From assembly GCA_021324235.1 (NCBI GenBank), contig JAJPJM010000182.1:1-33692 (forward strand): a DNA stretch of 33,692 bases, in the 5' to 3' direction. Every line of letters begins with the position of its first letter. Position 1 is the first letter of the stretch. This document shows positions 3,100-9,416 of the stretch, one piece after another. The notes beneath the pieces were generated by a model. That model made no database searches. It saw only the letters and a list, made by a program, of their open reading frames with translations, and was not told the DNA's origin. Both the position numbers and the translations under genes were made by a program. The stretch is from Verrucomicrobiota bacterium (GTDB lineage: Bacteria > Verrucomicrobiota > Verrucomicrobiia > Limisphaerales > UBA11358).

Positions 3100-3654
3100 T
3101 CAAGTGCTGCATTTTATGCCTTCCTGCGCCAGCAGGGTACGCTTCCAATCCAGTCCGACGGAAAAGCCGCCGAGTTTTTTGTTGGCGGCGAGCACGCGAT
3201 GGCAGGGAACCAAAACCGGAATCGGGTTCGCCCCGCACGCGCCGCCAACCGCCCGGACGGCCCTGGGTTTGCCAATTTGCCGCGCGATTTCACCGTAGCT
3301 TTTCGTTTCGCCAAGGGAGATTTTCTGTAATGCATTCCAGACGTTTTTCTGAAATTCCGTCCCGGCGGACAGATCGAGCGGCGGCAGTTTTTTCGCTGCT
3401 TGCCCGGCCAGAATGCTTTTCAACGCGGCTTCCGTGGTGCGATGCCAGTCGTGGATTTTATTTGAAACCGGTAGGAGACGACGTGAGGAGTCTCTGACTG
3501 CCGCATCGGTACCTGAACAATTTTGAGACTCGTTACCTCGTCTCCTACTAACAAGGGATGGGAAATCCAGTGCGGCGAGGCCTTTTTCGGAATAATGCGC
3601 GACGAATCGGCCGACGCGCGTAGGAATGGGTAGCTCGATAGAATGATTTTTCAT
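3100..3654 (-). CDS. ogt: Methylated-DNA--protein-cysteine methyltransferase with in-frame insertion
   Basis: This suicide repair enzyme moves the alkyl group from O6-alkylguanine (or O4-alkylthymine) to its own cysteine. The C-terminal domain is intact: FQKNVWNAL, SYGEIARQIG with the helix-turn-helix region, RAVGGACGANPIPVLVPCHRV with acceptor Cys at 151, and the final GG(F/Y)-type loop. The N-terminal domain is interrupted at residues about 36-61 by 26 codons from a palindromic DNA element; without them the protein would be about 158 residues, normal for Ogt-type enzymes. The insertion lies in the linker before the conserved IHDWHRTT helix, so activity may survive. The gene starts 11 bases after the upstream coiled-coil gene and is probably co-transcribed with it. 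Confidence 0.92.
   Translation of the reverse strand: MKNHSIELPIPTRVGRFVAHYSEKGLAALDFPSLVSRRRGNESQNCSGTDAAVRDSSRRLLPVSNKIHDWHRTTEAALKSILAGQAAKKLPPLDLSAGTEFQKNVWNALQKISLGETKSYGEIARQIGKPRAVRAVGGACGANPIPVLVPCHRVLAANKKLGGFSVGLDWKRTLLAQEGIKCST
3471..3548. repeat. 78-bp palindromic element inside ogt
   Basis: Arms of 24 bp (3471-3494 and 3525-3548) are inverted copies with three mismatches; both outer ends read GTAGGAGACGA inward. They surround a 30-base centre. The length is a multiple of three, and on the coding strand it carries no stop, so it adds about 26 residues to the enzyme. No target-site duplication is obvious. No second copy was found in this window. Confidence 0.85.
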
Positions 3655-8419: not shown

Positions 8420-8992
8420 TCAAGTGTACAGTTTTGCTGCACGGATGGACTCGGCGACCGGGGACGGTACCAGCGGTTCGAGGGGCAAGCCCGCCTTTAC
8501 CCGTCCGCGGATTTGCGATGACGAAACGGCCAGCGGAAAACCCTTCAAGGTCCGCCCGCGAAACGGCGCCGGAAAGTTCACCGGCGCTTCACCGGGGCGG
8601 GGTGTGACCACGAACTGCGCCAGCTTTGCCAATTCACCGGCCTCGCGCCATTCGTTGAGCTTGGCCGTATTGTCCGCGCCGATGAGATAAAACAATTCCG
8701 CTTGCGGAAAGCGTTTCGCATAATCGCGCACGGTTTCGATGGTGTAGGAAACGCCGCCGCGTTTGATTTCCTGATCGTCAATTTCACAATTTGTTTTGCC
8801 GGCAAGCGCGAGCCGGAGCCATTGCAGCCGGCGGGCGGCGGGCGCGGGCTGGTTTTCCGGCTTGAACGGCGATTGCGCCGCCGGGATGAAAAACAGCCGG
8901 TCCAGGCCCAGTTCCTCGATGGCCGCCTGCGCGACGAGCAGATGGCCGAGGTGGACCGGGTCAAACGAGCCGCCGAACAATCCTAGTTTCAT
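8420..8992 (-). CDS. nadD: Nicotinate-nucleotide adenylyltransferase
   Basis: NadD adenylates nicotinate mononucleotide to deamido-NAD in the main NAD route; it is cytoplasmic. The 190-residue protein has GLFGGSFDPVHLGHLLVA with the nucleotidyltransferase (H/T)xGH motif, FIPAAQSPFKP, LFYLIGADN, and SSSQIRGRVKAGLPL, the ISSTxIR-type ATP-binding motif. Length is normal. The ATG at 8992 directly abuts a 7-bp-period array, so no Shine-Dalgarno sequence is present. It is followed by rsfS and is divergent from the zinc-ribbon gene. Confidence 0.96.
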   Translation of the reverse strand: MKLGLFGGSFDPVHLGHLLVAQAAIEELGLDRLFFIPAAQSPFKPENQPAPAARRLQWLRLALAGKTNCEIDDQEIKRGGVSYTIETVRDYAKRFPQAELFYLIGADNTAKLNEWREAGELAKLAQFVVTPRPGEAPVNFPAPFRGRTLKGFPLAVSSSQIRGRVKAGLPLEPLVPSPVAESIRAAKLYT

Positions 8993-9118
8993 GTTGAAAG
9001 TTGCCGGTTACCGGTTGCGCTGGCGCAAACCGCCCGGTCAACTTGCAATTTTCCGCCGCCAACCTGCAACCGAAATAATGTTGAAATTGTAAATCGTAAA
9101 TCGTAAATCAAAAATCGA
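8993..9118. repeat. Divergent intergenic region made of three 7-bp-period arrays
   Basis: Almost the whole spacer between nadD and the zinc-ribbon gene is 7-base periodic. At 8993-9020 there are four units near GTTGCCG. At 9036-9077 there are six units, several near CNNCAAC or CTGCAAC, i.e. the reverse-complement sense of the first array. At 9084-9118 there are five units near AAATCGT. The first array touches the nadD start codon and the third ends one base before the ATG at 9120. Neither gene has a Shine-Dalgarno sequence. No ordinary promoter is visible. Confidence 0.85.
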
Positions 9119-9119
9119 A

Positions 9120-9416
9120 ATGACCCGACACTGCCATCAATGCGGTGAGCCTTGGACGTTGAACGGCCAGCCGGGCCGCGGCGAAACCTGCATGAAATGC
9201 CGGGCCGACCTGCGCGTCTGCCTGAATTGCGCGCATTACGACCGTCACGTGGCGCAGCAATGCCGCGAACGCCGCGCCGAACCGGTGCTCGAAAAGCACG
9301 TCGGCAATTTCTGCGAGTATTTTGAATTCGCCCTCCGGACCTGGACGCCGAAGGACGGGGGTAATTCGCGCGAAGCGGCGGCGCGCGACCGGTTAAAGAA
9401 ATTGTTCGGCGATTGA
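9120..9416 (+). CDS. Small zinc-ribbon protein of unknown function
   Basis: This 98-residue protein has four cysteine pairs or part-pairs: CHQC (5-8), CMKC (24-27), CLNC (34-37), and single Cys at 48 and 65. They fit one or two zinc-ribbon folds. The middle resembles proteins with an LRVCLNCAHYD...FCEYFEF pattern, which I recall as conserved hypotheticals. The C-terminus is charged and helical (SREAAARDRLKKLFGD). It is probably cytoplasmic, perhaps binding nucleic acid or protein. It ends 24 bases before the GT2 gene on the same strand. Confidence 0.8.
   Translation: MTRHCHQCGEPWTLNGQPGRGETCMKCRADLRVCLNCAHYDRHVAQQCRERRAEPVLEKHVGNFCEYFEFALRTWTPKDGGNSREAAARDRLKKLFGD

Follow-up and report, generated by a model that had tools for sequence, protein, structure and literature searches.

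Why should the spacer between two divergent genes consist almost wholly of 7-base repeats, with a unit that changes from one array to the next? The question is raised by the 127 bp that separate the start codons of nadD and a zinc-ribbon protein gene in a Verrucomicrobiota bacterium. Here, the window means the whole stretch of DNA analysed, 33,692 nucleotides of contig JAJPJM010000182.1. The original prediction, made from the letters alone, proposed a repeat-generating process that works on period, and not on one sequence, in leader DNA. We have therefore followed these arrays in the spacer itself, through the genome, and at orthologous sites in relatives.

Results

Three heptad arrays in the nadD spacer

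Across the spacer as a whole, lag-7 identity amounts to 0.51, a value that none of 2000 first-order Markov simulations reaches, and about 98 of the 127 bases fall within 7-bp units. The impression that the spacer is nearly all 7-base units was thus correct, and the three arrays described in it do keep their register. They are listed here with the flanking genes and with two further arrays of the window.

8420-8992, reverse strand: nadD, flanking gene.
8993-9020, forward strand: array A, four GTTNNNN heptads, putative left arm of a GTTGC-class element (own signal and intact homologues).
9021-9039, unstranded: core between arms A and B, 19 bp, unconserved when cores of relatives are compared.
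9040-9074, forward strand: array B, worn, putative right arm of the same GTTGC-class element as A (own signal and homologous arms).
9084-9119, forward strand: array C, five AAATCGT-like heptads (9084-9118) plus an A, putative right arm of a GTAAATC-class element (heptads and relatives).
9120-9416, forward strand: zinc-ribbon protein gene, 98 aa, flanking gene.
8-44, unstranded: further array of the GTTCGAT (GAACATC) class.
1924-1977, unstranded: further period-7 array with CGGAAGN-like units.

Array C (AAATTGT AAATCGT AAATCGT AAATCAA AAATCGA) has 25 of 29 lag-7 matches, which is far beyond chance (p<5e-5). It is followed by a single A and then by the zinc-ribbon ATG at 9120. Array A (GTTGAAA GTTGCCG GTTACCG GTTGCGC) gives a moderate signal, with 14 of 21 matches (p=0.002 under a Markov-1 model of the spacer), and its first base adjoins the nadD start codon, so that the outer arrays do lie at both start codons as described. 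Array B (AACTTGC AATTTTC CGCCGCC AACCTGC AACCGAA), separated from array C by 9 bp, reaches 13 of 28 matches (p=0.03), a signal that is weak taken alone. We accept it nevertheless because intact versions of it stand in orthologues of the same genus, such as TTCAACTTTCAACCTTCAACCTGCAACCTGCAAC in L103. As for unit numbers, the four GTTGCCG-like units of A and the five AAATCGT-like units of C agree with the earlier count, while the array in the opposite sense holds five worn AACNNNN-like units and not six.

Heptad arrays in the genome and in relatives

The repeats of the spacer belong to a much larger population. The 3.09-Mb genome contains 38 copies of GTAAATCGTAAATC and none of the reversed control. 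The array statistics are based on 826 kb of this genome and on samples of relatives. In the 826 kb there are 58 lag-7 arrays, compared with 0 in Markov-3 sequence; about one third of this sample was picked from contigs with known GTAAATC doublets, so the density is somewhat inflated and the contrast between lags is not. Lags of 5, 8, 9, 10 and 11 give 0-3 arrays each, and lag 6, the next non-harmonic one, gives 9-10. The excess of period 7 over random DNA is found in the relatives as well. Collected arrays fall into 127 cyclic unit classes, in keeping with the proposal of a fixed period and changing units.

Period-7 arrays are dispersed through the genome and enriched outside genes, according to approximate gene calls from a home-made caller that places some arrays inside predicted genes. 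Several arrays lie within long predicted genes at L065 11700-12872 and L083 5102-10825; the peptides encoded by these arrays would repeat every 7 residues. No preference for a type of spacer is seen (tandem 21/495, divergent 6/108, convergent 4/117), and the arrays border stop codons as well as start codons. Since they are found next to stop codons and in convergent spacers too, the repeats are not specific to leader DNA, and this part of the original prediction is not supported as worded.

GTAAATC doublets are present in 39 of 59 relatives, and strict two-armed GTAAATC elements in 31 of the 196 genomes of the order, our own genome included. These repeats are far more abundant, with 188 and 218 doublets, in two genomes from another order of the same taxonomic class (G340 and G240; L275-L286), where the arrays are often single arms, about 140 bp apart and within larger repeats. 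Arrays with a GTTGGGA unit were observed both in L196, a Deltaproteobacteria MAG, and in L083 (15889-15942), which belong to different phyla.

Inverted arms, a core of set length and an AAY anchor

Many arrays pair in inverted orientation, as (ATTTACG)n - core - (CGTAAAT)n. Among neighbouring array pairs, 12 of 16 match inverted at at least 5 of 7 positions, compared with 13% of random pairings. The orientation of the pair depends on the class. GTAAATC pairs of this genome stand in the outward order GATTTACG-core-CGTAAATC in 17 cases and in the inward order in 0; all 49 genomes of the genus together contain six inward matches, several of which are variants of one sequence. The GAACATC arms of about seven local pairs all face inward, and it is on these pairs that the orientation of the class rests; the genome-wide count for GAACATC comprises few strict matches, and many of the outward ones resemble one conserved sequence.

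In 42 of 52 GTAAATC elements the span equals a multiple of 7 or misses it by a single base (p=2.5e-8). The spans peak at 42 and 49, and some of the 52 listed elements are orthologues of each other. Judged by eye, the longer elements mostly carry one extra worn unit, so the core measures about 26 bp and sometimes 19 bp. Core sequences of different elements look unrelated although their length is nearly fixed. A residual period of 7 was looked for inside the cores and was not found (p=0.20); the cores are therefore not visibly worn heptads.

Within the units of arrays that contain AAC or AAT, mismatches to the array consensus amount to about 5-9% at the three anchor positions, compared with 9-22% elsewhere. 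The difference persists when the same base is compared inside and outside the anchor: in AAC arrays the departure is 0.047 vs 0.133 for A and 0.076 vs 0.213 for C, and in AAT arrays it is 0.052 vs 0.154 for T. Common descent links many of these arrays, and the formal p-values of this test therefore overstate their independence. The AAY constraint hints at a candidate factor that would bind these repeats. A process acting on period and not on sequence is thus supported in its first half, the fixed period. It cannot be a process on period alone, because the arrays also have an AAY anchor, inverted pairing, a class-specific orientation and a nearly fixed core length.

Orthologous sites in relatives

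Upstream of nadD, species of the same genus either lack an element, have one of the GTTGC, GTTCA or TTTTA class, or have a single arm, these states having been called by eye. When they are placed on the NadD tree, 16 changes are needed, no fewer than after shuffling of the labels (mean 14.5). Supported sister pairs differ in class (L102 with GTTGC vs L119 with GTTCA) and in presence (L091, this genome, with an element vs L092 without one; L107 with vs L096 without). The spacers of L103 and L111 provide one clear case of a 7-bp step: the left arm is common, the core is nearly the same, and the right arms are one heptad apart. Orthologous spacers of related species thus differ in copy number, by a 7-bp step, and in unit class, and turnover between species is fast. 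In L115 and L119, which carry a GTTCA element upstream of nadD, the usual nadD ATG is missing. Judged by eye, the array contains a GTG in frame with nadD, which looks as though the start codon now came from the repeat.

At the zinc-ribbon border, full GTAAATC elements are found in L202, the closest relative, and in L203, L205, L206 and L209. L207 and L212 have the GTAAATC right arm only, L220 has a GTTCA-type element, and other relatives have none. The left arm that corresponds to array C is missing in this genome and present in L202. Given these elements in relatives, we take array C for a GTAAATC right arm, and A plus B for a separate element. Between species, AACATCG, AACATCC and AACCTTG units also swap at the same place of another locus.

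Discussion

A probable dispersed inverted heptamer repeat

We consider it probable (about 0.68) that the spacer consists of one and a half copies of a dispersed inverted heptamer repeat with a core of roughly 19-26 bp, lying flush with the gene borders. Judging from the sequence comparisons, A and B appear to be the left and right arms of one GTTGC-class element, now worn, and C the right arm that remains of a GTAAATC-class element. That the spacer is almost wholly 7-base repeats would then be due to one worn copy and half of another, both from a widespread intergenic family. Elements of this family have a period of 7, paired inverted arms in a class-fixed orientation, an unconserved core of nearly fixed length and an AAY anchor. 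As to their origin, slipped-strand replication may lengthen, shorten and homogenise the arms in steps of 7 bp, while the element as a whole would spread or be replaced. It could be mostly a tolerated passenger that happens to provide leader DNA and a context for the start codon. A change of class at one and the same border, together with a new core, would require dispersal or an exchange of spacers.

Ordinary simple-sequence slippage without any element structure, with independent arrays grown in place, would explain the 7-bp copy-number change and the homogenisation of units between species, and among long SSRs of many bacteria the heptamers are the commonest class (Mrazek 2007, cited by PMC4679880). 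However, slippage alone accounts for none of the inverted pairing, the fixed orientation, the set core length and the common AAY anchor, and we regard it as improbable. The arrays could instead control translation from the 5' leader, with the regularly spaced AAY motifs immediately upstream of the start codon being bound by the ribosome or by a protein (S1, cold-shock or CsrA-like). Array C stops one base before the ATG, many GTAAATC arrays run into start codons, the anchor is conserved, and the position is that of the TAACTGA repeats in Maribeggiatoa (PMC4679880). Nevertheless, arrays adjoin stop codons equally and also sit between convergent genes, the orthologous zinc-ribbon and nadD genes often have no array, and, because the arms are inverted, arrays occur in both orientations relative to genes. 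A role in leader control is thus unlikely.

Selection for pairing as an RNA or DNA hairpin (a terminator, a processing site or a cruciform) would agree with arms that share a class and are complementary by class, and with long stems such as that of -40.1 kcal/mol for the L103 spacer stretch. Yet the arms of an element pair no better with each other than with arms swapped within the class (p=0.66 and 0.19), the spacer-context preference expected of terminators is absent, and many arms are single. Base-level covariation between arms was looked for within class and not found, and a search of Rfam 15 returned no structured RNA family at gathering score. We give the hairpin little credence. Movement of REPIN-like elements by a Y1 (RAYT-type) transposase would fit conserved inverted ends, an unconserved core, intergenic dispersal and the four Y1_Tnp hits of the genome. 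However, none of these four genes is flanked by arrays of the classes described here, across 36 genomes the number of doublets does not follow that of Y1_Tnp genes (Spearman coefficient 0.25, p=0.14), and G007 has 8 doublets and 0 Y1_Tnp, G012 nine Y1_Tnp and 0 doublets. This makes transposition by such an enzyme very improbable.

Beside the dispersed inverted repeat that we prefer, a 7-bp-stepped process or factor that reads the spaced AAY motif, and not the full sequence, might lay down or maintain inverted heptad arms, a set distance apart, at the borders of genes. We hold this bolder proposal to be rather doubtful. If it were true, one architecture would be re-created with different units at the same site in sister species.

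Comparison with known repeats

An earlier description of such repeats in Verrucomicrobia was looked for in the open-licence literature, and none was found. Cyanobacterial short tandemly repeated repetitive (STRR) heptamers are intergenic and comprise several units per genome, and this genome likewise has several intergenic heptamer units. What marks intergenic heptanucleotide SSR or STRR arrays is found here: tandem 7-bp units above chance, dispersal, and 7-bp steps between relatives. Integron attC sites consist of single RYYYAAC and GTTRRRY core sites that bound a hairpin. We rejected this identity, as units such as GTTGCAG, GTTCGAT and GATTTAC depart from GTTRRRY and are arranged in tandem arrays.

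Pairs of inverted heptamer arrays have been described before, in Xanthomonas. According to excerpts of Rehm et al. (2015, PMC4692102), GGGAATC and GGGGA(C/T)T repeats occur in Xanthomonas and Nostoc, and two Xanthomonas genomes contain 70 and 75 inverted convergent pairs. As described in these excerpts, those repeats and ours are dispersed intergenic arrays of few units near gene borders, with close inverted pairs, partly variable unit positions (there GGGANTN) and a position little conserved between species (PMC4692102). The unit there is a single G-rich one that forms quadruplexes, whereas here many classes stand side by side, mostly not G-rich and with an AAY anchor; the nearly fixed core length and the switching of class at orthologous sites do not appear in the excerpted text (PMC4692102). 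A repeat of the Xanthomonas type was rejected, the window units GTTGCCG, AACCTGC and AAATCGT being without G-tracts.

The TAACTGA repeats of marine Beggiatoaceae are intergenic arrays of 2-6 units, many of which end a few bases from a start codon (MacGregor 2015, PMC4679880); the same paper describes 7-nt indels between related cyanobacterial strains. Our arrays are similarly intergenic and often end near start codons. Unlike them, TAACTGA repeats have one favoured unit, a strong orientation to the start codon and a single inverted case (PMC4679880), whereas the present arrays have inverted pairs, many units and stop borders too. Since the units differ and stop and convergent borders are also used, an identity with these translational repeats was discarded. 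The geometry, in short, resembles that of the Xanthomonas pairs, without the G-rich unit, and the start-codon bias of the TAACTGA repeats is absent (PMC4692102, PMC4679880). REPINs, or REP pairs, are likewise short inverted ends spread between genes, as an excerpt of Bertels and Rainey (2011, PMC3116915) describes them. Compared with that excerpt, the arms here are heptad arrays and not REP palindromes, and have no link to a RAYT gene.

At orthologous sites the period, the geometry and the core length are kept while the unit changes, which makes slippage, dispersal and selection separable. This bears on why heptamers are a favoured repeat length in many bacterial genomes. It is also a warning that leaders, choices of start codon and some predicted ORFs in genomes of this sort may stem from repeats and not from conserved regulation.

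Two other dispersed repeats were observed in the window. The first (2016-2145) contains stretches, such as 2098-2128, with 97-100% identity in many genomes of the genus. The second (3465-3554) has many copies in relatives and matches on both strands, and is thus apparently palindromic.
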